Of a stretch of DNA of 64,000 nucleotides, positions 7,122 through 26,536 are shown in pieces. A model generated the notes under the pieces. The model had not been told where the DNA came from. It saw nothing but the letters and a program-made list of their open reading frames with translations, and searched no databases. Position 1 is the stretch's first letter; the number at the start of each line of letters is the position of its first letter. The position numbers were made by a program, and so were the translations under genes. This DNA comes from Finegoldia magna ATCC 29328 (lineage in GTDB: Bacteria; Bacillota; Clostridia; Tissierellales; Peptoniphilaceae), in assembly GCF_000010185.1 (NCBI RefSeq), contig NC_010376.1, positions 1,559,501 to 1,623,500 of the forward strand, written 5' to 3'.

Positions 7122-8816
7122 CTATTTAATCAATTGGGCACTTAAAGCATTTTCTAAAACATATTTATATTTTGAGAAAGTTTCAGAATCAAGCAACTGA
7201 TATTTGTCATTCTTTAGCTCTATAATATTTATTTCGCTTTCAAATTCAAAATTCCTTCTTTCAAACCCAATTGATGAAAAAATCAATTGGGTATAATTTG
7301 ATGAATTATCTAATATATATTCAATTAAGGATTGTGCCTTATCATAATCCATCTCCGCATTCTTAGGGCTATCTAATACCATAGGTAAATTCAAGCATTT
7401 ATTATTAAAAATTTTTTTAATATCATTAAGTATAAAATACCATATAACTGTTGAAATTGGTTTATTACTTCCACTTGCACAAAAAACTCGATTAATTGCT
7501 TTATATTGTGCTTCCTCTAACTCATTTAATCCAAACTTTAAGACTTCCCTATCAATCATATCATAATATTTTTTATTGATATCCGATTTAATTTTAGATA
7601 CTTCCTTCAAGTCTTCCTCAATATTTTCTAGTTTCTCTTTAAGTTCTCCTTGCAAATTAAACTCATTAAATAACTCTAAATTTAAACTATTATATAGTTC
7701 ATTTAGCCCCATATAGCTGCTATAATTTTTTATTTCTGTCTTAGCTATACCAATGTTTTTCTTGTATGATTCCAACTTATCTAAAAACTCTTTATAACTA
7801 CCCTCTATTTGTAAAATTGATTTTGAAATCTTTTCTATATCCTCATATATGCTGTCCTTTATATATAACGAATCCTCAATTGAATTGTATCTTTTACTTC
7901 TAAGATCAGTTGTATCTTTCAAAACTGAATGGCATTCAGGACATATATCTGTATTTAAAATATACTTTATTTCTTTTTCCTTTTTATTCTTAAACCTTTC
8001 AATTTGGTTCAATGCAATTTCAAGCTCATATTTTTCATTTCGTAAATTTGTAAGCTCATACCTAAATTTATTAATAGAATTCAGAATATAATCATATTCC
8101 TTTGTTCTAATAGAAAGCTCCCTTTCAAGCTCTTTTAAATTTTCAGGCACAACAATATTACCTAATAGTTTAGATACTTTTTCTTTCATTCTACTAGTTT
8201 CTCTGTATGCGTCTTCTGAATCATTTATACGTTCCAATAAATTTTGTTTACTTTCAACATGTTCAAAATAATTTTTATCATATATTCCAAATTGTGCATA
8301 TATTACATCAGGTTTAAAATTTTGATATTGTCCTAATCTCTTAAAGGAACTAAAGTATGTTCCATCATAATAATCTTGGTCAATAAAATTCATTACATAT
8401 GTATATGCTGGTGGAGCAATCTCCAGCTTCTCAGTCCTTCTATTCGGTAAAAATATTTCAAAATCCCAAATATTGCTTAAAAAATATGATAACTCAATTA
8501 TAGTTGATGTTTGAAATAATATCTTAAAAACATCATTAAATACTTTGAATAACTTTTTATGGCGATATATAAAATATATATTATCGTTAACCGAAAACTC
8601 TAAAATATATACTTTATCTTCATTTTTCCATTTTTTATCGAAGTGGGCATCAGCACCCAAAGTATGATATAAACTACGTAACAAGACTGACTTCCCTCTA
8701 TCTGTTCCATCAATGTTACTAGAAGTAACAATATTTAAACCTTTTTCAAAACATGTAACAAAAGCCTCTTTAGTTAAAATATCAAAAATATATATTTTAT
8801 TGAAAATAACATCCAT
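7122..8816 (-). CDS. SMC/Rad50-like ATPase, LmuB-like (Lamassu/ABC-3C)
   Basis: The 564-residue protein has an N-terminal Walker A variant GTDRGKS (37-43), long coiled-coil arms, a zinc-hook motif CPEC (292-295) in the middle, a second coiled coil and a C-terminal Walker B/D-loop LPMVLDSPKN (477-486). This layout is that of the ATPase of Lamassu-type and ABC three-component anti-phage systems, where it senses DNA and releases the partner nuclease. It overlaps the nuclease gene by one base (TAATG), with GGGAGGTGAT before its start. The LDSP in place of the LDE of ordinary SMC proteins is, as I recall, usual in this defence group. No separate LmuC-like middle gene is seen. Confidence 0.8.
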   Translation of the reverse strand: MDVIFNKIYIFDILTKEAFVTCFEKGLNIVTSSNIDGTDRGKSVLLRSLYHTLGADAHFDKKWKNEDKVYILEFSVNDNIYFIYRHKKLFKVFNDVFKILFQTSTIIELSYFLSNIWDFEIFLPNRRTEKLEIAPPAYTYVMNFIDQDYYDGTYFSSFKRLGQYQNFKPDVIYAQFGIYDKNYFEHVESKQNLLERINDSEDAYRETSRMKEKVSKLLGNIVVPENLKELERELSIRTKEYDYILNSINKFRYELTNLRNEKYELEIALNQIERFKNKKEKEIKYILNTDICPECHSVLKDTTDLRSKRYNSIEDSLYIKDSIYEDIEKISKSILQIEGSYKEFLDKLESYKKNIGIAKTEIKNYSSYMGLNELYNSLNLELFNEFNLQGELKEKLENIEEDLKEVSKIKSDINKKYYDMIDREVLKFGLNELEEAQYKAINRVFCASGSNKPISTVIWYFILNDIKKIFNNKCLNLPMVLDSPKNAEMDYDKAQSLIEYILDNSSNYTQLIFSSIGFERRNFEFESEINIIELKNDKYQLLDSETFSKYKYVLENALSAQLIK

Positions 8817-9841
8817 TAAATATCACCTCCCTCTGTGTATAAATAAAATACCATTAAATAAAATACTTTTTTCATGTATTTTGTGTATTCTATAGGGAAT
8901 TCACTATCAAATACATTATTTAAAATATTAAAAAGGTCATTTTCGTTTTTTATCTTATCTATATTCCCTTCAATATACTCAAAAATTGATATCTTTAATA
9001 CATTCAACTCATGGCTTTGATCAATTTCCAGTAAATTAGTTAAAGCTTGATTATATAATCTTCTTTCTGATGGGAATAAAGTTTTAATATAATCTTTAAC
9101 CTGCTCAATGCCTGTTATAGATTTTTTCCTATGAGATTCAAGCATTTTATTAAACTCATTTTTAGAAATTCCTTTTAATTCTAGTACATCATTATAATTA
9201 GTGATTGCCATCTCATAAGAAGCTTTTTTCTGAGCTGTATCAGATACTAATCGAAATAAAGCATTAGGATTATTAGGTTCTTCATTTTTTATTTCTTGGA
9301 AAGCTTCAATTAACTTTCCAAGCAAAGCATAATGAGGATTTGTTAAGTCCATACTTTCACATACATAAAAAACATTATCAAGAATGACTTCTGATAACTT
9401 TAGTTCTTCTTGCAATTTATCTTCAATAAAATCTATTACTGTTTTGTCCAACTCACCTAAACAAACTTCTTTCCTTAAATCTTCTTTACTATCAATTTTC
9501 AAATGCTTATTACAAACTACAGCCAGCTTTATATTATGATTTGGGTTGTAAAGAGCATACAATGTTCCCAAAATAGATCTACTATTTCCTTTTCTCTTAG
9601 TTAGTGTTTTAGAACTATGATTACCTCTATTTATTGTTTTCACCTGGTAAAAATCAAGACCATTATCACGATGCAATTCAATATCACATTTGAAATCAAA
9701 CACAATTGTATAGTCATCGTACAGCTTATATGCATCAATTAATTTACCAACTCCCCACAACAATTCAACTCTAAATCTATTTTTCGTTCTACTACCTGCT
9801 AAATCTAATGGTAAATTCATATAATAGTTCGAATATTCCAA
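8816..9841 (-). CDS. Cap4/DUF4297-type nuclease, LmuA-like
   Basis: The N-terminal region contains VFDFKCDIEL and DFYQVKT (about residues 47-69), the D-E-QxK pattern of PD-(D/E)xK nucleases of the DUF4297/Cap4 family. The remaining 250 or so residues are helical and unassigned; they may be the sensor or ATPase-binding part. The start is uncertain: GAGGTGAT fits TTG at 9841 (341 residues), while GTG at 9850 lies within the ribosome site and ATG at 9820 lacks one. Gene order nuclease then SMC, one-base overlap and adjacency to AbiE support a Lamassu-like defence operon in which this is the effector that degrades DNA when the ATPase is triggered. Confidence 0.75.
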   Translation of the reverse strand: MEYSNYYMNLPLDLAGSRTKNRFRVELLWGVGKLIDAYKLYDDYTIVFDFKCDIELHRDNGLDFYQVKTINRGNHSSKTLTKRKGNSRSILGTLYALYNPNHNIKLAVVCNKHLKIDSKEDLRKEVCLGELDKTVIDFIEDKLQEELKLSEVILDNVFYVCESMDLTNPHYALLGKLIEAFQEIKNEEPNNPNALFRLVSDTAQKKASYEMAITNYNDVLELKGISKNEFNKMLESHRKKSITGIEQVKDYIKTLFPSERRLYNQALTNLLEIDQSHELNVLKISIFEYIEGNIDKIKNENDLFNILNNVFDSEFPIEYTKYMKKVFYLMVFYLYTEGGDI

Positions 9842-13317: not shown

Positions 13318-15114
13318 CTATTTTCTTTCAAATTGCGCGTTGTATAATTGTGCGTAGAATCCGTCACGTTTCAATAATTCGTCATGTTTTCCTTTTTCTA
13401 CGATGTCTCCGTCTTTCATTACAAGTATCAAATCCGCGTTTTTGATTGTGGATAATCTGTGTGCGATTACAAATGATGTTCTTCCTTTTGCGAGTTCGTC
13501 CATTGCATCTTGAACGATTATTTCAGTTCTCGTATCCACGGAACTTGTGGCTTCATCTAGTATCAACATTGGCGCGTGACTTACCATCGCACGTGCTATT
13601 GTGAGTAGTTGAAGTTGTCCTTGCGACAATGATTGCTTGTCGTTTAAAATCGTGTCGTATCCTTGTGGAAGTGTTCTGATAAAATGATCTAAGTTTACTC
13701 GTTTGCACACATCAATCAATTCTTCGTCAGTTATATTTTCTTCTCCAAATGTTATGTTTTCTCTGACACTCGCTTCGAAAACCCACGAATCTTGAAGCAC
13801 CATGCAGAATTGGTCTCTCAAATTGTCTCTGGATAATTTTTTCGTATCAATTCCGTCTACCAATATTTGTCCGTCGTTTATTTCGTAAAATCTCATTAAT
13901 AGATTTACAATTGTCGTCTTGCCTGCTCCAGTTGGGCCAACGATGGCGATTTTCTCTCCTGGATTTACTTTGACGCTGAAATCTTTGATGATGATTTTGT
14001 CTGGGTTATATCCAAATCTAACGTCTTTAAATTCGACTTCGCCTTTTGCTCTGTCGAGTTTTTCAGTTACGTTTTCTTCTTCTAATTCTTTTTCGTTCAA
14101 AAATTCGAACACTCTCTCCCCTGCCGCTGCAGCTCTTTGCAAAGTGTTGAAGCTTTGTGCAATGTCTGATAATGGATTGGTAAATAGTCTCACGTATATC
14201 ATAAACGCCACAATTACTCCGAATGATATTTTGCCATTAATCGCCAATGCTCCTCCGACTATGCAGACCATTACGTATGAAAAGTTTCCTGCAAATTGCA
14301 TTACAGGCATCATAAGTCCGGACAGAAATTGCGATTTCCAAGCACTTGTGTAAAGTTTCTTGTTAGTTTCTTCGAATTCATCAATCATCATTTCACCAGC
14401 ATTGTAGGCCTTTATGACGTTGTGACCAGTGTAGACTTCTTCGATTTGGCCGTTAATGTCTCCCAAGTTTTCTTGTTGGGCTTTGAAATGTTTTTGTGAT
14501 TTTTTCATAATTATTATTATAACCACAAATCCCACAAGCGATGACAAAATCGTCGTTACAGTCAAAATTCCCGAGTTGTAAATCATCATTACTACGGTTC
14601 CTACTAACATCACAACACTTGTCAGCAAACTTCCAACAGATTGGTTCAAACTTTGGCTGATTGTGTCGACGTCGTTTGTTACCCTACTTAGAATGTCTCC
14701 AAAAGTTGTGTTGTCGAAATAACTAAATGGTAATTTATTGACTTTATTTGCGATTTTTTCTCGGAATGATTTGGAGATTTTTTGTGTAACATCTGCCATG
14801 ATAAATCTTTGAAGCAAATTCAACAACAAAGATGATCCGTAAAATATAACAAGCATCATCGTGATTGATTTTACATTATCCATGTCAATTGCAGCCATCA
14901 CAGGCTTTCCTTTTACCATTTTAGGAAGTCCTTTGGTGATTTCGTCTGTTATTAGTTTCAATTTATCTGGTCCAATTATTTGCAATATCGTTGCGATTAC
15001 GCTTGCTACAATTGCTATTAATATCAATGGGAAGTAAGGTTTCAAATACCTTGCCATTTCTTTTAATGTTTTTTTGAATTTTTTCGGTTTTTCATTTACA
15101 GCTTGTCTAGGCAT
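13318..15114 (-). CDS. Heterodimeric ABC exporter subunit, catalytic-site half
   Basis: The 598-residue half-transporter has six membrane segments and an ATPase domain. Walker A is GPTGAGKTT, Walker B LILDEATSSVD keeps the catalytic Glu, and the H-loop IAHRLSTI keeps the His. Its signature is LSQGQ instead of LSGGQ. In LmrCD, BmrCD and TM287/288 pairs such a half forms one competent and one degenerate ATP site with its partner; the same pattern is seen here. It overlaps the partner gene by eight bases, with GAGGAG before ATG 15114. The role is probably multidrug or toxic-compound export controlled by the linked MarR. Confidence 0.92.
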   Translation of the reverse strand: MPRQAVNEKPKKFKKTLKEMARYLKPYFPLILIAIVASVIATILQIIGPDKLKLITDEITKGLPKMVKGKPVMAAIDMDNVKSITMMLVIFYGSSLLLNLLQRFIMADVTQKISKSFREKIANKVNKLPFSYFDNTTFGDILSRVTNDVDTISQSLNQSVGSLLTSVVMLVGTVVMMIYNSGILTVTTILSSLVGFVVIIIIMKKSQKHFKAQQENLGDINGQIEEVYTGHNVIKAYNAGEMMIDEFEETNKKLYTSAWKSQFLSGLMMPVMQFAGNFSYVMVCIVGGALAINGKISFGVIVAFMIYVRLFTNPLSDIAQSFNTLQRAAAAGERVFEFLNEKELEEENVTEKLDRAKGEVEFKDVRFGYNPDKIIIKDFSVKVNPGEKIAIVGPTGAGKTTIVNLLMRFYEINDGQILVDGIDTKKLSRDNLRDQFCMVLQDSWVFEASVRENITFGEENITDEELIDVCKRVNLDHFIRTLPQGYDTILNDKQSLSQGQLQLLTIARAMVSHAPMLILDEATSSVDTRTEIIVQDAMDELAKGRTSFVIAHRLSTIKNADLILVMKDGDIVEKGKHDELLKRDGFYAQLYNAQFERK

Positions 15115-16867
15115 TTAATTCCTCCTCTGTTAATTGCGAGTAGGCTATTTCTTTGTAAACTTCACAATTTTTTAATAAATCTTTGTGCTTACCTATCCCA
15201 ACGATTTGGCCATTTTCAAGTACGATTATTTGATCAGAATCCATTATAGATCCCACTCTTTGAGCGACAACTATCGTTGTGGAATCAGGGTTGTTTTCTT
15301 TGAGTTGATGTCTAAGCTCACTGTCTGTCTTGAAATCAAGTGCCGAGAAACTATCGTCAAACAAGAATATATCAGGCTTTCTGTAGATTGCTCTTGCAAT
15401 GGATAGTCTTTGTTTTTGTCCACCAGAAACATTCTTTCCTAATTGTGCAATTTCATGGTCGTATTTGTCGTCAAATTTATCTATAAATTCTATAGATTGT
15501 GAAGTATCCGCTGCTTCTTCTACCATTTTCGTGTCGGTATCTTCATCTCCAAAAGAAATGTTCGATTTAATATCCCCTTTGAAAAGAAATGATTTTTGCA
15601 ACACTGCTGCGATTTTTTCGTACAAGAATTTGAGCTTGTACTGTTTGATATCTACTCCTTGGATTTTGACGACACCTTCAGTCGCATCGTAAAATCTCAA
15701 AAGCAAATTCAAGATAGTACTTTTCCCAGATCCAGTTGATCCGATGATGGCAACTTTCTCTCCTTTTTTGACTTTAAAATCAATATTTTGCAAGATATAT
15801 TGTTCAGAATCTGTATATTTGAAAGACACATCGTCAAATTCAATTTCATATTCGTAATCTTCATTTGAGCTATCAAGATTTCCATCTTTTATAGAAAGTT
15901 CTGTATCCAAAACTTCGTTGATACGTTTGGCAGAAATTTCTGCTCTTGGAACCATGATGAAAATCATGCTCATCATCATAAATGACATGATAACTTGCAT
16001 TGCATACGAACTGAAAACAACCATGTTCGAGAACAAGACGTATTTGTCCATCATTTGCGCAGCATTGATGAGTCCCGCACCGATAAAATAAATCACGAGT
16101 GTCAACATCGACATGCTGAAATTAATCATAGGAAAAAGCATCGACATCGCACGACTTGTGAACAATTGTGTTCTTGTCAAATCGATGTTTGCTTCATCGA
16201 ACTTTCCTTCCCTATAATCTTCGGAGTTGTACGCTCTGATAACCGCAAGTCCTGTCAAATTTTCACGCAAAATCCTGTTGATGTTGTCGGTTAAAGTTTG
16301 CATCATTCTGAATTTCGGCATAACCATAACCATTAGTATTGCAACGAATACAATTAAAACCAAAACAGTCACAGCAGTTGCCATTGTCCATTCAAATCCT
16401 TTGTTGTAGATTTTAGTGATTGCCCAGACTGCCATTATCGGCGCTTTTATCAAAATTTGTAAACCTATAACTATTACCATTTGAATTTGAGTAATATCAT
16501 TTGTAGATCTAGTTATCAAGCTTGCTGTCGAAAACTCGTTGATTTCTTTCATCGAGAAACTTTCCACCTTGGAAAATATTCTAGACCTCAAATTTTTGGA
16601 AAATGACGCCGAAATTTTCGATGCCAAATATCCTACAATTATCGCTGATAAAAGAGAACCAAATGCACACAACAGCATCCATTTGCCCTCTCCAACAATA
16701 TCACTTACAGTGTGACCCGGACTTTCCACATACATCGTAATTTTCGACATATAATCTGGAATTTTCAAATCCAAAAACACTTGAGTTACGATAAACACCA
16801 AACTCAAAAGAATTTGAATCCATTGTTTTTTGTTCAAATATCTAAATATTTTTATCAAAATTATCAT
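15107..16867 (-). CDS. Heterodimeric ABC exporter subunit, degenerate half
   Basis: The 586-residue half-transporter has Walker A GSTGSGKST and a standard signature VSGGQKQR. Its Walker B reads IFLFDDSFSALD, with Asp replacing the catalytic Glu, and its H-loop reads VVAQRVGSI, with Gln replacing His. These losses combine with the LSQGQ signature of the partner in the same composite site, the classical degenerate arrangement of heterodimeric exporters. The start is placed at ATG 16867, 26 bases inside the marR gene, without a clear ribosome site; coupling to marR translation is likely. Confidence 0.9.
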   Translation of the reverse strand: MIILIKIFRYLNKKQWIQILLSLVFIVTQVFLDLKIPDYMSKITMYVESPGHTVSDIVGEGKWMLLCAFGSLLSAIIVGYLASKISASFSKNLRSRIFSKVESFSMKEINEFSTASLITRSTNDITQIQMVIVIGLQILIKAPIMAVWAITKIYNKGFEWTMATAVTVLVLIVFVAILMVMVMPKFRMMQTLTDNINRILRENLTGLAVIRAYNSEDYREGKFDEANIDLTRTQLFTSRAMSMLFPMINFSMSMLTLVIYFIGAGLINAAQMMDKYVLFSNMVVFSSYAMQVIMSFMMMSMIFIMVPRAEISAKRINEVLDTELSIKDGNLDSSNEDYEYEIEFDDVSFKYTDSEQYILQNIDFKVKKGEKVAIIGSTGSGKSTILNLLLRFYDATEGVVKIQGVDIKQYKLKFLYEKIAAVLQKSFLFKGDIKSNISFGDEDTDTKMVEEAADTSQSIEFIDKFDDKYDHEIAQLGKNVSGGQKQRLSIARAIYRKPDIFLFDDSFSALDFKTDSELRHQLKENNPDSTTIVVAQRVGSIMDSDQIIVLENGQIVGIGKHKDLLKNCEVYKEIAYSQLTEEELNA

Positions 16868-17318
16868 CCATTTCTTTAAATTTTTCTTCGCAGTCTTTGC
16901 TAATCTTTGGCAAATTTTTGATAAGCTTGTCGATTATTCTGACGAAATTTTCAGAATCTTCTTCTCCTAAATAATCAAACATTTGACCAAGCGCATACAT
17001 TATTTTCTTTTCAGTTTCAAGGGCTACTTCTTCTCCTTGTTTGGTCAAAGTAACCAAAGTTTTTCTCCTGTCAATTTTGTCATCAGTTCTGATTACAAGA
17101 TTTCGTTGTTCCAATTTTTTGATAATAGCTGCAACTCTTGCACTGGAAATTCCCATCGCAAGTTCAATTTCTTTGGGATAAGTCGAACCGCCTTCTGATT
17201 TTATAAATCCCAAAGCCATGTTTTCTCCTCTAACAGAATCGTTAATTTGTTTGTGAGGATGGTGTTTTCCAATGCTGTGAACGCATCTTATAACTTCTTT
17301 TGCTAATTTTTCATTCAT
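16842..17318 (-). CDS. MarR family transcriptional regulator
   Basis: The 158-residue protein shows the MarR winged helix: KEIELAMGISSARVAAIIKK as recognition region, then TDDKIDRRKTLVTLT as the wing with the conserved D-R-R. The N-terminal region has a histidine-rich stretch (HSIGKHHPHKQ). It is the first gene of the ABC exporter operon and is preceded by a strong promoter with a palindrome at its transcription start region, so it probably represses the pump operon until a ligand binds. Confidence 0.9.
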   Translation of the reverse strand: MNEKLAKEVIRCVHSIGKHHPHKQINDSVRGENMALGFIKSEGGSTYPKEIELAMGISSARVAAIIKKLEQRNLVIRTDDKIDRRKTLVTLTKQGEEVALETEKKIMYALGQMFDYLGEEDSENFVRIIDKLIKNLPKISKDCEEKFKEMDDNFDKNI

Positions 17319-17334
17319 AATATCACCTTTTTAC

Positions 17335-17377
17335 CTAATACTATTAGAATTATACGACTACTAATAACCATTGTCAA
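17335..17377 (-). promoter_or_regulatory. marR operon promoter and operator
   Basis: TTGACA (17377-17372) and TATAAT (17354-17349) are both consensus and 17 bases apart on the minus strand. The palindrome CTAATACTATTAG (17335-17347) lies directly downstream of the -10 box, where MarR would block transcription. Confidence 0.75.
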
Positions 17378-17412
17378 TGATTTTCTCGAATATTTTTCGA
17401 TTTCGTTCAAAT

Positions 17413-17445
17413 AAAAAACAACCACCAAGATATTCTTGATGGTTG
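17413..17445 (-). terminator. Terminator of thiC
   Basis: On the minus strand CAACCATCAAGA pairs with TCTTGGTGGTTG (one G-T pair) and is followed by six T (17418-17413). It lies 38 bases after the thiC stop. Confidence 0.85.
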
Positions 17446-17482
17446 AATTCGCATTTTAAAATAAATTTTTTAATCAAATTTT

Positions 17483-18784
17483 CTAAATTAAATTGACATC
17501 TTCGCCGTTCAATACTTTCTTCACTGTTCTCATTGAACACATTTTTCCGCACATTGTGCAGCTATCTTCTTCGATTGGTTGAGATTCTTTTCTGTATTTT
17601 TTTGGTTTCTCGCTGTCAATTGCAAGTTCGAACATTTTTTCCCAATCTAAGTTGAAGCGAGCTCTACTCATTTCGTCGTCTCTTTCTTTTGCTCCAGGGA
17701 TTTTCTTCGCTATATCTCCAGCATGAGCTGCAATTTTCGTAGCAATGATTCCTTCTTTCATATCTTCCAAGTTAGGTAGTCTCAAATGTTCTGCAGGAGT
17801 TACGTAACACAAGAAATCTGCTCCCGTACTTGCTGCAATGGCACCACCGATTGCTGATGTTATGTGATCGTATCCTGGAGCAATGTCAGTAACCAAAGGT
17901 CCCAACACATAAAATGGAGCGTTGTTACAGATTGTTTTTTCGATTTTCATGTTTGCTTCGATTTGATCGATTGGAACATGGCCTGGTCCTTCAATCATTA
18001 CTTGGACATTTTTTTCGTAGGCTCTTTTTGCCATTCTGGATAGATTGATTAGCTCTTGAATTTGCAAATCATCTGTCGCATCGTTGATGCAACCTGGTCT
18101 CAATGCATCTCCCAAGCTTAGTGTCACGTCGTATTTTTCGCAGATTTCAAGTATATCGTCGTATCTTGTTACAAGTGGGTTTTCTTTGTTGTTCACAATC
18201 ATCCACGCGAATAATAATGATCCACCACGTGACACAATTTTTGTGATTCTATCTGTTGTTTTCAAATGTTGTGCGATATCTCTTGTAAGTCCAACGTGAA
18301 TTGTGATGAAATCCACCCCGTCTTTTGCGTGTTGTTCCACAACTTCCAAGAATTCTTCTTCAGTAATATCCTTCAATTCTTTATCCAACATTCCCACACA
18401 ATCGTACATTGGAACGCTACCAATCATTGCTGGAGAGTAACCGATAAGTTCTTCTCTAAATTTTCTTGTCTTACCGTAATTTGACAAATCCATTATCGCT
18501 TCTGCATCCATGTCGATTGCCACTCTAACTTTTTCCATTTCTTTTTCGATGTTGTAGCAGTCTTTTGAAATACCCAAATTCACGTTAATTTTTGTTTTCA
18601 AACCTTCGCCGACACCGTGTGCATCTAGTGATTTGTGGTTTTTGTTTGCAGGAATAACCACGTATCCTTTTTCAATTTTTTCTCTAAGAATTTCTACGTC
18701 TATATTTTCTTTTTGCGCTACTCTTTTCATTTCTTTTGTAATGATTTTCTTCTTCGCAGCGTCTAATTGAGTTGTATATTCCAT
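17483..18784 (-). CDS. thiC: Phosphomethylpyrimidine synthase ThiC
   Basis: ThiC is a radical-SAM enzyme that rearranges aminoimidazole ribotide to HMP-phosphate for thiamine synthesis. The 433-residue protein is of the short form lacking the long N-terminal extension of E. coli ThiC. Conserved stretches include [26 protein letters not shown] and the C-terminal cluster motif CTMCGKMC. That motif is CX2CX3C, one residue shorter than the CX2CX4C of E. coli and Bacillus; I recall similar spacing in other short-form enzymes. It is a single gene behind a TPP riboswitch. No other thiamine gene is in the window. Confidence 0.95.
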
Positions 18785-22528: not shown

Positions 22529-22600
22529 ATAACAAACCTTGATGACAAAAATATCATGTGCAACAAATTGTCAAGATATTCGTGCATTAAGGTTTGTTAT
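22529..22600. repeat. Structured intergenic repeat, copy A
   Basis: Perfect 12-base outer arms ATAACAAACCTT (22529-22540) and AAGGTTTGTTAT (22589-22600) enclose AATATC (22550-22555) pairing with GATATT (22575-22580). The internal strings AATATCAT, AACAAATTG and AGATATTCGTGC recur in copy B (24862-25035) while the outer arms differ. It lies between two minus-strand genes. A partial repeat of the 3' arm (GCATTAATGGTTTGT) follows at 22613-22627. No T-run follows either strand, so it is not a plain terminator. Confidence 0.6.
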
Positions 22601-23553: not shown

Positions 23554-24813
23554 ATGACGAAAAAAATATTAAACACATCCCTTGCATACGTCGCAGTGCT
23601 CACTGGTGCGGGCCTTGCAAGCGGACAAGAAATCTTGCAATATTTCACAGCTTATGGCAAGTCTGGTTTGTGGACCGCGCTATTTGTTTTGTTGTTGCAT
23701 ACATTTATCGGAGCGATTATTTTGGAATTGGGCTCGTATTATTTTGCAGATGAGCACAGCGATGTCTTGGATGAAATTGCATCCAAGAAATTCACGAAAG
23801 TATTCGACATTTTACTTATCTTAACAGGATTTATAATCGGGTTTGTAATGCTATCAGGTGCAGGATCCAACCTCAACCAACAATTTGGACTAGCTCCATG
23901 GATAGGGTCTTTGATTTGCGCACTACTTGTAATTTTCGTAGGAATGATGGATTTTGAAAAAGTTACGAGAATTATCGGAGCCTTCACTCCAATTATCGTG
24001 GCGTTGATTTTAATTGCATCAATCTATACAATCGTGAAATTTGATGGAAGTTTTGACCAATTAGATCCAATCGCAAGAACTATTTCGAAAAATTTCGGCA
24101 ATCCTTGGCTTTCTGTAGTCAATTACTTTTCATTGTGTATGATGGTGGGTTTGAGTACGGCCTTTGCTATCGGTGGTAACCATGTATTATCAGAAGAAGC
24201 CAAAGTCAGTGGACTTTTGGGAGGATTTATCACAGGAACGGTAACATCACTTTTGGCTGTTGTTTTATTCATGAGAGTCGACATTTTAAAAGATTCAGAT
24301 CTTCCAACACAAGTTTTAATCGAAGAAATCAACCCTGTTCTTGGTTTGATAATGAGTTTGGTAATTTTCGGAATGATTTTTAACACAGCAATCGGCTTGT
24401 ATTATTCATTGGCAAAAAGATTTTCAAAAAATAGTCCTGGAAAGTACAAAATGTATTTAATAGGATTCGTAACTGTGGGATTTTTCCTAAGCTTTTTAGG
24501 ATTCAAGAAACTTATCAGCATCACCTACCCAATCATAGGTTACGCTGGAATTATATTGATACTATTCTTGATTTACGCATACATCAGAGATTTTAAGAAA
24601 ATCAAGAAAGAATCCAAAAGAAGATTCAAAATCTTGGATTTGTTGGAAAAGAAGTACGACGACGATCAACATTACAGCAAAAAAGATGCCAGCAAAGTAA
24701 AATCCATGATTGAAGATTCAAACTTGGACAACAAAGTTTTGAAAGAAGAAATGGAAACAATGGCAGAAGAAAATCAATCAGACGATAATGATGAAGAAAA
24801 TACTGAAGAATAA
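23554..24813 (+). CDS. YkvI-like membrane transporter
   Basis: This 419-residue protein has about ten membrane segments up to residue 340, beginning with AYVAVLTGAGLASGQEILQYF, which has the unwound-helix glycine pattern of the LeuT/APC fold seen in YkvI (COG3949). The last 80 residues are a charged cytoplasmic tail rich in Lys, then Asp and Glu, ending EENTEE. The substrate is unknown. GAAGGAG precedes ATG 23554. Confidence 0.82.
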   Translation: MTKKILNTSLAYVAVLTGAGLASGQEILQYFTAYGKSGLWTALFVLLLHTFIGAIILELGSYYFADEHSDVLDEIASKKFTKVFDILLILTGFIIGFVMLSGAGSNLNQQFGLAPWIGSLICALLVIFVGMMDFEKVTRIIGAFTPIIVALILIASIYTIVKFDGSFDQLDPIARTISKNFGNPWLSVVNYFSLCMMVGLSTAFAIGGNHVLSEEAKVSGLLGGFITGTVTSLLAVVLFMRVDILKDSDLPTQVLIEEINPVLGLIMSLVIFGMIFNTAIGLYYSLAKRFSKNSPGKYKMYLIGFVTVGFFLSFLGFKKLISITYPIIGYAGIILILFLIYAYIRDFKKIKKESKRRFKILDLLEKKYDDDQHYSKKDASKVKSMIEDSNLDNKVLKEEMETMAEENQSDDNDEENTEE

Positions 24814-24819
24814 TTAATT

Positions 24820-24844
24820 GGCTGCACTACTAGCAGCCTTTTTG
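24820..24844 (+). terminator. Terminator of the YkvI-like gene
   Basis: GGCTGC/GCAGCC with a seven-base loop is followed by TTTTT. Confidence 0.85.
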
Positions 24845-24861
24845 TTTGAGATTTTGTAGAT

Positions 24862-25035
24862 TAGAAAATCCTCTGGCTAAGAATATCATACGAAACAAAT
24901 TGTTTGATTTCAAATCGAAAAAATCCGTCAAAAATCGTACCGCGTAAGCGTTAGCGTGCTTACGATTTTAGGATTTTGAGATTTAGAAATCTTCAATTTG
25001 TGTAGTCTAGATATTCGTGCTAGAGGATTTTTCTA
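24862..25035. repeat. Structured intergenic repeat, copy B
   Basis: Four nested stems can be drawn: TAGAAAATCCTCT with AGAGGATTTTTCTA (one bulge), AATATC (24882-24887) with GATATT (25010-25015), ACAAATTG (24895-24902) with CAATTTGT (24994-25001), and AAAATCGTA (24931-24939) with TACGATTTT (24961-24969), capped by TAAGC/GCTTA. It shares AATATCAT, AACAAATTG and AGATATTCGTGC with copy A but has different outer arms and about 100 extra bases inside. Degenerate copies of its 3' arm follow near 25046 and 25070. It fills the gap before the YjiH-like gene. Confidence 0.6.
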
Positions 25036-25174
25036 ATTTTAATACCAGAAGATTTTTAAATTTATTACACCAAAGGATCTCTCACTTCTTCTCAGTAATT
25101 TTATTTGTTATTTTCTTGCATCATCTTTTTATTAATGATATACTAGTTGAAATATTTTAAAGCGAGGAGATAAT

Positions 25175-26536
25175 ATGAAAACCAACAAGAAATCATTACT
25201 TAAATTTCTGATTCCATCGATTATTGGGATAACTATCTTCATGATTCCCGTAAAATTCGATGGCAATTGGACAATAATAGTCAAAATTTTCGCTGATTTT
25301 ATCGCCAAAACCATCGGCGATTATCTACCAGCACTTTGCACAATAATAATCACGATATCATTTGTCATGAGCGTCTTGGCAAGTTTCAATGTCAAATTCA
25401 TCAAAGAAAACAAACTTTTGGATCAGACATTTTCCGTAACAGGCGTGTGGCTAGTTCTAAGAATTCTAGGATTTATCGTCGTGTGGATGGTCGTGTTGAA
25501 AGACAAGCTACACTTTGGAAAATTTTACGACATGATAGTCGCAGATGAATCTGCCACATTTATCCTCAACGATTTATTGACATCACTTGTAATTATTTTC
25601 GTAATCGCCAGCATGCTACTACCACTTTTGTTGGATTTTGGACTTTTGGAATTTATCGGTGCGATTTTTACCAAAATAATGCGACCAGTATTTTTGATTC
25701 CTGGACGTGCAGCAGTAGATTGCATCACAAGTTGGATTGGAGATGGAACATTAGGAGTCATGCTGACTTCAAACCAATACGAATCTGGATATTATTCTGC
25801 AAAAGAAGCCGCAATTATTTCTACGAATTTCTCTGCAGTTTCCATCACATTCAGTCTGATTGTCTTGTCCCAAGTTGACATGGTCGACTACTTTGGAGTG
25901 TACTACTTATTGGTATGCTTAGTTGGAATCGTGTGCGCAATTATCGTACCAAGAATTCCACCATTGTCACTTAAAAAAGATGAATATTTTGTAGAATCTA
26001 ATCAAGCAAATGAAGATATATCGAAAAATTATTCTTCATCCGTACAATACGGATTAGATTTGGCAATCAAACGAGCAGAATCTCACAAAGGAATCGGAGA
26101 ATTTTTGAAAAATGGAATCGAAAACGCATTTGGAATGTGGTTTTCAGTAATGCCTATAGTTATGATCATCGGAACGGCATCGCTTGTACTTGCCAATAAC
26201 ACGCAAGTATTTGAAATCCTTGGAAAGCCATTCTTGCCACTGTTGAACTTCTTGAAAGTTCCAGAAAGCTTGGAAGCATCCAAGACAATGATCGTCGGAT
26301 TCAGTGACATGTTCACACCATCCATTATAGCCGCAAGCACAATTCAATCGCAAATGACCAAATTCATCGTGGCGACAATCTCCGTAACACAATTAATCTA
26401 TCTATCAGAAGTCGGAGGACTTATCCTCGCATCGTCAATCCCTGTTAATTTGTTCGAATTATTCGTCATATTTATAGAACGAACAATAATCTCACTTTTG
26501 ATAGTAGTCCCAATCGCACATTTGATATTTATGTAA
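25175..26536 (+). CDS. YjiH-like membrane protein with nucleoside-recognition (Gate) domains
   Basis: The 453-residue protein has around ten membrane segments. The stretches VDCITSWIGDGTLGVMLTSNQYESGYYSAKEAAI and GFSDMFTPSIIA are typical of the YjiH family, whose Gate domains are also found in nucleoside transporters and spore proteins. Transport is assumed; the substrate is unknown. GAGGAG precedes ATG 25175. It ends in a shared terminator with the convergent hydrolase gene. Confidence 0.83.
   Translation: MKTNKKSLLKFLIPSIIGITIFMIPVKFDGNWTIIVKIFADFIAKTIGDYLPALCTIIITISFVMSVLASFNVKFIKENKLLDQTFSVTGVWLVLRILGFIVVWMVVLKDKLHFGKFYDMIVADESATFILNDLLTSLVIIFVIASMLLPLLLDFGLLEFIGAIFTKIMRPVFLIPGRAAVDCITSWIGDGTLGVMLTSNQYESGYYSAKEAAIISTNFSAVSITFSLIVLSQVDMVDYFGVYYLLVCLVGIVCAIIVPRIPPLSLKKDEYFVESNQANEDISKNYSSSVQYGLDLAIKRAESHKGIGEFLKNGIENAFGMWFSVMPIVMIIGTASLVLANNTQVFEILGKPFLPLLNFLKVPESLEASKTMIVGFSDMFTPSIIAASTIQSQMTKFIVATISVTQLIYLSEVGGLILASSIPVNLFELFVIFIERTIISLLIVVPIAHLIFM

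Follow-up and report, generated by a model that had tools for sequence, protein, structure and literature searches.

The analyzed window (64,000 nucleotides from Finegoldia magna ATCC 29328, part of a chromosome of 1,797,577 bp) contains, between the end of one gene and the start of a gene for a membrane protein, a stretch of about 175 bases for which a first-pass annotation predicted a large multi-stem fold. Two readings of this stretch were offered, i.e. a cis-regulatory RNA or a member of a repeat family that had received an internal insertion. The locus raises the question of what kind of element lies here, and how it came to occupy its place.

Structure and conservation of the element in the window

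Folding of the sequence confirmed the predicted structure. At positions 24862-25034/25035 of the window, a single rod of stacked helices (one long imperfect hairpin) is formed with an energy of -66.6 kcal/mol, compared with -31.1 ± 3.8 kcal/mol for dinucleotide shuffles (z -9.4; 0 of 200 as good); the reverse strand folds at -53.7 kcal/mol. The 5′ arm of the outer stem (24864-24877, plus strand) pairs with a 3′ arm at 25019-25032 (plus strand), the latter identified by both the fold and covariation. The core common to the best genomic copies, GCTAAGAATATC...GATATTCGTGC, spans positions 24876-25020 of the plus strand (query positions 15-159) and encloses an inner domain (24920-24977, plus strand). 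This domain is comprised of (i) a helix formed by 24920-24926 and 24971-24977, (ii) an asymmetric internal loop, with GTCA on its 5′ side and A on its 3′ side, (iii) a second helix (24931-24939/24961-24969), whose arms, AAAATCGTA and TACGATTTT, had been proposed as an extra hairpin and are a genuine helix of the rod, and (iv) an apical head, which is the part of the domain that recurs in other phyla.

The surroundings of the rod were also described correctly. The upstream gene ends at 24813 and is followed by a terminator-like sequence, GGCTGCACTACTAGCAGCC plus TTTTT (24820-24843, plus strand; stem at 24820-24838, T run to 24843), which is the intrinsic terminator of this gene and the presumed original target of the element. 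At the same position the second Finegoldia genome analyzed (G001) carries a different hairpin with compensating changes. The membrane protein is encoded by an ORF at 25175-26536 (Pfam Gate, PF07670), which starts 140 bp beyond the rod, and a weak promoter-like site was found downstream of the rod, at 25147-25174. Degenerate repeats of the 3′ arm, reported further downstream (about 25041-25095), are present but weak. In this region G001 lacks 24 bp and reads TTCGTGCCATATGATTTC, like the remnant 3′ end of another copy.

Comparison of the homologous loci revealed that the element stays with the same gene in both Finegoldia. The two rods are identical at 170 of 173 positions (98.3%), compared with 88% identity for the 700-bp flanks and 79-84% for the nearest 90 bp, while the identity of other orthologous pairs of element copies ranges from 80% to 97%. 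Either selection on the structure or conversion between copies could account for the conservation of the rod at this locus. Given its retention there in both Finegoldia, this old copy may have acquired a local role.

A dispersed family with covarying helices

The suggestion that the element belongs to a repeat family was borne out by about 29 dispersed matches in its own genome (G000) and 43 in G001. A covariance model of the family, R1, matches the structured rod (24862-25034, plus strand) from end to end (model positions 1-173) with a score of 181.5 bits, the window copy itself being included in the source alignment of the model. When 120 genomes of the same bacterial family were searched with R1, 38 proved to carry the element, representing 8 of 39 genera, with up to 22 or more copies per genome; Anaerococcus and Peptoniphilus species are among the carriers in the matches listed from a head-motif scan of named genomes. 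A search of plasmids for the element gave no match.

No Rfam 15 covariance model matched the window at the gathering threshold, scans of the window region and seven other copies at a lax E-value returned nothing credible, and a literature search with sequence fragments of the element yielded no relevant paper among the matches listed. Judged against Rfam 15 and the literature searched, the family is apparently undescribed.

A second member located in the window, element A (22530-22599, plus strand), had been reported to share its core with the larger element. It retains the outer stem and matches both ends of R1, with the middle missing (28.5 bits, E 6e-4). Its ortholog in G001 is of full length (L032:12125-12297, minus strand), and the full-length form is the one common to the genera, so that the supposed insertion in the larger element is most simply read as an internal deletion in element A.

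Several arrangements of copies were observed in addition to single ones. Tandem arrays, with a period of about 223-274 bp and variable linkers, are present at L018:6042-6437 (adjoining an apparent 5S rRNA gene), L019:5332-5703, and L042:3621-4529 and 8169-8887. Clusters of related hairpins, which comprise several other outer-stem families, shorter derivatives and mosaic copies with halves from different subfamilies, occupy L012:2231-4824 and 14568-17833. Copies found in genus g15 (L080-L083, L137-L142) have different outer ends (AGAAAAGTGATTTTCACGAGCGCAG...), which suggests that the core is not confined to a single kind of mobile unit.

The alignment of 57 near full-length copies contains 47 base pairs, of which 34 show two-sided changes. 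Pairing was observed in 95.4% of the pairing cells (78.8% in shuffled and 27-52% in slid controls), with a covariation score of 0.484; the shuffled controls scored 0.19 and the slid ones no more than 0.11. Covariation within the family is thus very strong. The outer stem differs in sequence from copy to copy and keeps its complementarity (helix 1 has two-sided changes in 5 of 5 pairs), and the unpaired positions of the purine-rich internal loops are among the most constant columns.

Such a pattern could reflect a structured RNA with a function in cis or in trans (e.g. a rod bound by a protein or a small RNA released by processing), which is mobile by chance and for which the ends shared with insertion sequences (ISs) serve only as a vehicle. 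Selection on its transcript would then preserve both the pairing of the helices and the constancy of the internal loops. We regard this as a possible, rather doubtful explanation. Besides the covariation and the constancy of the purine-rich loops, it is favored by the near identity of the window copy between the two Finegoldia within less conserved flanks, by the more stable fold of the plus strand in most copies examined, and by an excess of GU over AC mismatches in Finegoldia (68 versus 31 in a strand-neutral count). This excess is weak in other genera (130 versus 112), so that the count lends RNA weak support and the data fit an RNA rod as well as a DNA hairpin. On pairs chosen by RNAalifold the excess is stronger, but such pairs are biased towards GU; the polarity of these mismatches, clear only on the biased pairs, was rejected as proof of RNA. 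Moreover, the orientation of the copies is mixed: in other genera, 44 of 48 copies located between tandem genes are oriented against those genes, so that read-through would yield the other strand, and promoter evidence is lacking.

It is improbable that the palindromes are kept alike by DNA processes alone, such as quasi-palindrome template switching and gene conversion, with no transposase involved. Template switching can yield compensating changes, and both the tandem arrays and the mosaic copies with unmatched halves (e.g. L012:17661-17833) would fit such processes, but it should erase mismatched internal loops, yet these are among the most constant parts of the element. Nor would it duplicate unique terminators, in direct orientation and at fixed offsets, as observed around many copies; this requires insertion.

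Insertion at terminators and the candidate transposase

No copy lies inside an ORF of at least 120 codons, and only 3 of 124 are located between divergent genes, whereas 34 of the 164 intergenic gaps at the same Finegoldia loci are divergent. Two sites that are filled in G001 (C7:46930 and C7:20776) are empty at the orthologous positions of G000, and copies of opposite orientation, accompanied by remnants, are found at the 3′ end of secA in the two Finegoldia. Since the copies never occur in ORFs, rarely separate divergent genes and have empty orthologous sites, the family is mobile.

The neighboring genes are unrelated, and the copies adjoin mostly their 3′ ends, in either orientation. The idea of a cis-regulatory leader of the membrane protein gene is consequently not supported, and we consider it very improbable. 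Its strong conservation and its constant place ahead of this gene in the two Finegoldia would suit a leader, but the element occurs at dozens of unrelated genes and in tandem arrays, other loci have empty sites, the promoter-like site lies downstream of the element, and the copies have no constant sense-orientation link to one gene class.

Copies in related genera are bordered on both sides by direct copies of the terminator hairpin specific to the locus, e.g. TGAGCCTTTCTAGGCTCA-unit-TGAGCCTTTCTAGGCCCATTTT. Flank-to-flank direct repeats with a score of at least 12 were detected in 41 of 142 copies (a count that includes a few tandem-array and other repeats away from the expected offset), compared with 1.0% of randomly re-paired flanks. 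A repeat was present at the expected offset in 27 copies; 26 of these show plausible target duplications, with a mean length of 20 bp (15-26 bp), and in 23 of the 27 the repeat folds below -3 kcal/mol (5% of shuffles). The sequence before the duplicated repeats is rich in A and that after them rich in T, and the unit between them is 193-204 bp long, mostly 197 bp. Terminator duplication was likewise found for the Finegoldia copies L034 and L036, and the G001 copy at C7:46930 lies between 23-bp direct repeats (two mismatches) that correspond to a terminator hairpin present once in G000. An earlier proposal, suggested by one empty site, that the outer stem of each copy repeats the local flank in inverted form was dropped in view of these direct duplications at fixed offsets. 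Very long bidirectional terminators that arose in place would share the location at gene ends and the outer arms, A-rich on the 5′ and T-rich on the 3′ side, but they are very improbable, given the separate ordinary terminator beside many copies (the window copy included), the core common to different loci and genera, and the empty orthologous sites with an ordinary terminator alone.

Like MITEs, the family is short, gene-less, multi-copy and dispersed between genes, and it generates target site duplications, which are visible for the family and not around the window copy. In the flanks of the latter no second terminator copy was seen and the ends of the element are not recognizable; because both are gone, we consider this copy to be old and decayed. 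By analogy with the ~197-bp unit of related copies, the whole element would extend approximately from 24845 to 25041 (plus strand), since the offsets of duplicated terminators elsewhere place the ends 12-19 bases before and 4-13 bases after the 173-position model; the end sequences themselves are decayed here.

The small units of the related genera begin with CAGACTGTTGACAAAG and end with TTTGTCTACGCTCTG. Matching ends were identified in IS units of 1.54-1.59 kb, which begin with CAGACTGWTGACAAAG (with variants in some) and end with TTTGTCTNCARTCTG or a close sequence. The body of the small unit has no counterpart in the IS. Among 13 DUF772 (PF05598) transposase loci examined, from the same bacterial family, seven (L156, L157, L158, L160, L162, L167 and L172) display duplication of a whole terminator around the IS. 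The transposase of L158 belongs to the IS1182 family according to NCBIfam NF033551 (438.6 bits, cut-off 270) and contains PF05598 and PF13751. The candidate partner IS combines a transposase of the IS1182 family with insertion at palindromes or terminators, both characteristic of that family. The terminal inverted repeats are common to the IS and the Anaerococcus/Peptoniphilus-type copies, while the ends of the Finegoldia copies differ or are decayed. In G000 and G001 no IS with matching ends was found; the sole DUF772 transposase of G000 is frameshifted, represents another subgroup and is located on a plasmid (C1, L182), and G001 has none. PF05598 transposases are encoded in 15 of the 38 element-bearing genomes and in 21 of the 82 others, i.e. 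there is a mild co-occurrence.

Two other candidate movers were rejected. Three IS200/IS605-type Y1 transposase genes (L051-L053) are all located on plasmid C1 of G000, while the copies of the element are chromosomal, and no match to a reverse transcriptase (RVT_1) was found in the genome.

Insertion at the hairpins of terminators has been reported for IS1272, a member of the IS1182 family, which is described as deleting the hairpin and leaving no duplicated copy (PMC4923244, PMC5678879). A pathway duplicating the whole terminator was sketched there as a mere possibility (PMC5678879, Fig. 13), and the elements described here would represent this targeting variant. Given the matching ends, the same terminator duplication around both kinds of unit and the precedent of IS1272, an IS1182-type transposase supplied in trans is the most likely mover. 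The other or decayed ends of the Finegoldia copies, the failure to find a matching IS in G000 and G001, and the only mild co-occurrence of transposase and element keep this assignment short of certain.

Judging from the sequences compared, it is probable that the element is a non-autonomous, MITE-like unit of ~197 bp, moved in trans by a DDE transposase of the IS1182 family and inserted at terminators, which become duplicated. In the proposed mechanism, (i) the ends of the unit, whose body is the covarying hairpin rod, would be recognized by the transposase supplied in trans, (ii) insertion would occur at the hairpin of an intrinsic terminator, possibly recognized as hairpin or cruciform DNA, and (iii) repair of the cut target would leave one complete terminator copy on each side. 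We propose that, with a terminator on each side, the host gene would still end properly, and insertion would therefore be cheap and tolerable. The window copy would be an old, decayed member of the family that settled immediately after the terminator of the upstream gene, whose end lies at 24813. The system offers a clear example of mobile DNA that inserts at transcription terminators and duplicates them, which would be a cheap way of persisting in compact genomes. It also puts a name to a repeat family, missing from Rfam and not found in the literature searched, of the Peptoniphilaceae, a bacterial family comprising commensals and opportunists of humans.

The apical head in other phyla and relation to known elements

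The head pattern, CTGTTTGAGCGN{1,4}AGCGAGTTTGCG, was scanned over 84,980 species genomes (257 billion bases), which revealed at least 120 stretches, compared with a rough chance expectation of well below one. The matches listed include Gastranaerophilales, Nitrospirales, Burkholderiales, Desulfatitalea, Lachnospiraceae, Oscillospiraceae, Bacteroidota and Zambryskibacteria. Within the phylum of the window, the exact head motif was found in 1 of 398 genomes (its own) and a control pattern in none; viral contigs contained no exact head. In nearly all cases inspected, L219 being an exception, the head caps a long palindrome or lies close to its tip. The long palindromes with the head TGTTTGAGCG-n-AGCGAGTTT, seen in many phyla (L185-L264, L313-L326), are often located near contig ends.

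Some of these hairpins are matched by R1 from end to end (e.g. L204, 59.7 bits), with E-values that are biased by the selection of the loci on their head. A class-level search with R1, free of such selection, found hairpins of this kind outside the bacterial family in 9 further genomes of 196; the locus L317 in this set does not fold as a rod. No target duplication above chance was detected around the hairpins of other phyla, and Rfam identified at these loci only an unrelated 6S RNA. The idea of a gene linked to the head was discarded, as only spurious frames of the repeat itself recur in the six-frame translations (e.g. LFERSEF and RANSLRSNS).

The sporadic recurrence of the head in other phyla is a lead rather than a conclusion. 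Tentatively, it might indicate an ancient or widely transferred hairpin family with diverging arms, in which the head TGTTTGAGCG-n-AGCGAGTTT, set over a helix and an asymmetric GTYA/A loop, would be recognized by a conserved cellular factor, and which in Peptoniphilaceae could have been captured between IS1182-type ends. Why bacteria so far apart retain the same hairpin head thereby becomes a testable question.

The MITE-like family described here is apparently new, and its insertion habit is unusual. ERIC, Correia (CREE), RUP and BOX elements are likewise intergenic palindromic repeats of 100-200 bp, present in multiple copies and devoid of ORFs; some are thought to be MITEs, and some have internal deletions or insertions. 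Unlike these, the present family has an outer stem that differs between copies and duplicates terminators, and no sequence relation was seen, short of a systematic comparison. Group IIC introns also insert at terminator hairpins. They differ from the present unit, for which we found no RVT_1 in the genome, a direct target duplication, and a rod instead of an intron fold. With REP/REPIN sequences and their RAYT (Y1) transposases the family shares the form of dispersed extragenic hairpins, but the flanking target duplications favor a DDE mechanism, and no Y1 partner is encoded with the repeats, the plasmid bearing the Y1 genes being free of element copies. The family also resembles IS1272: a transposase of the IS1182 family is present in related genomes, and the targets are terminator hairpins with no sequence consensus. 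Unlike IS1272, which is reported to delete or replace the target hairpin without duplication, the present unit has no gene and duplicates the whole terminator, and its mechanism must therefore differ in that step.
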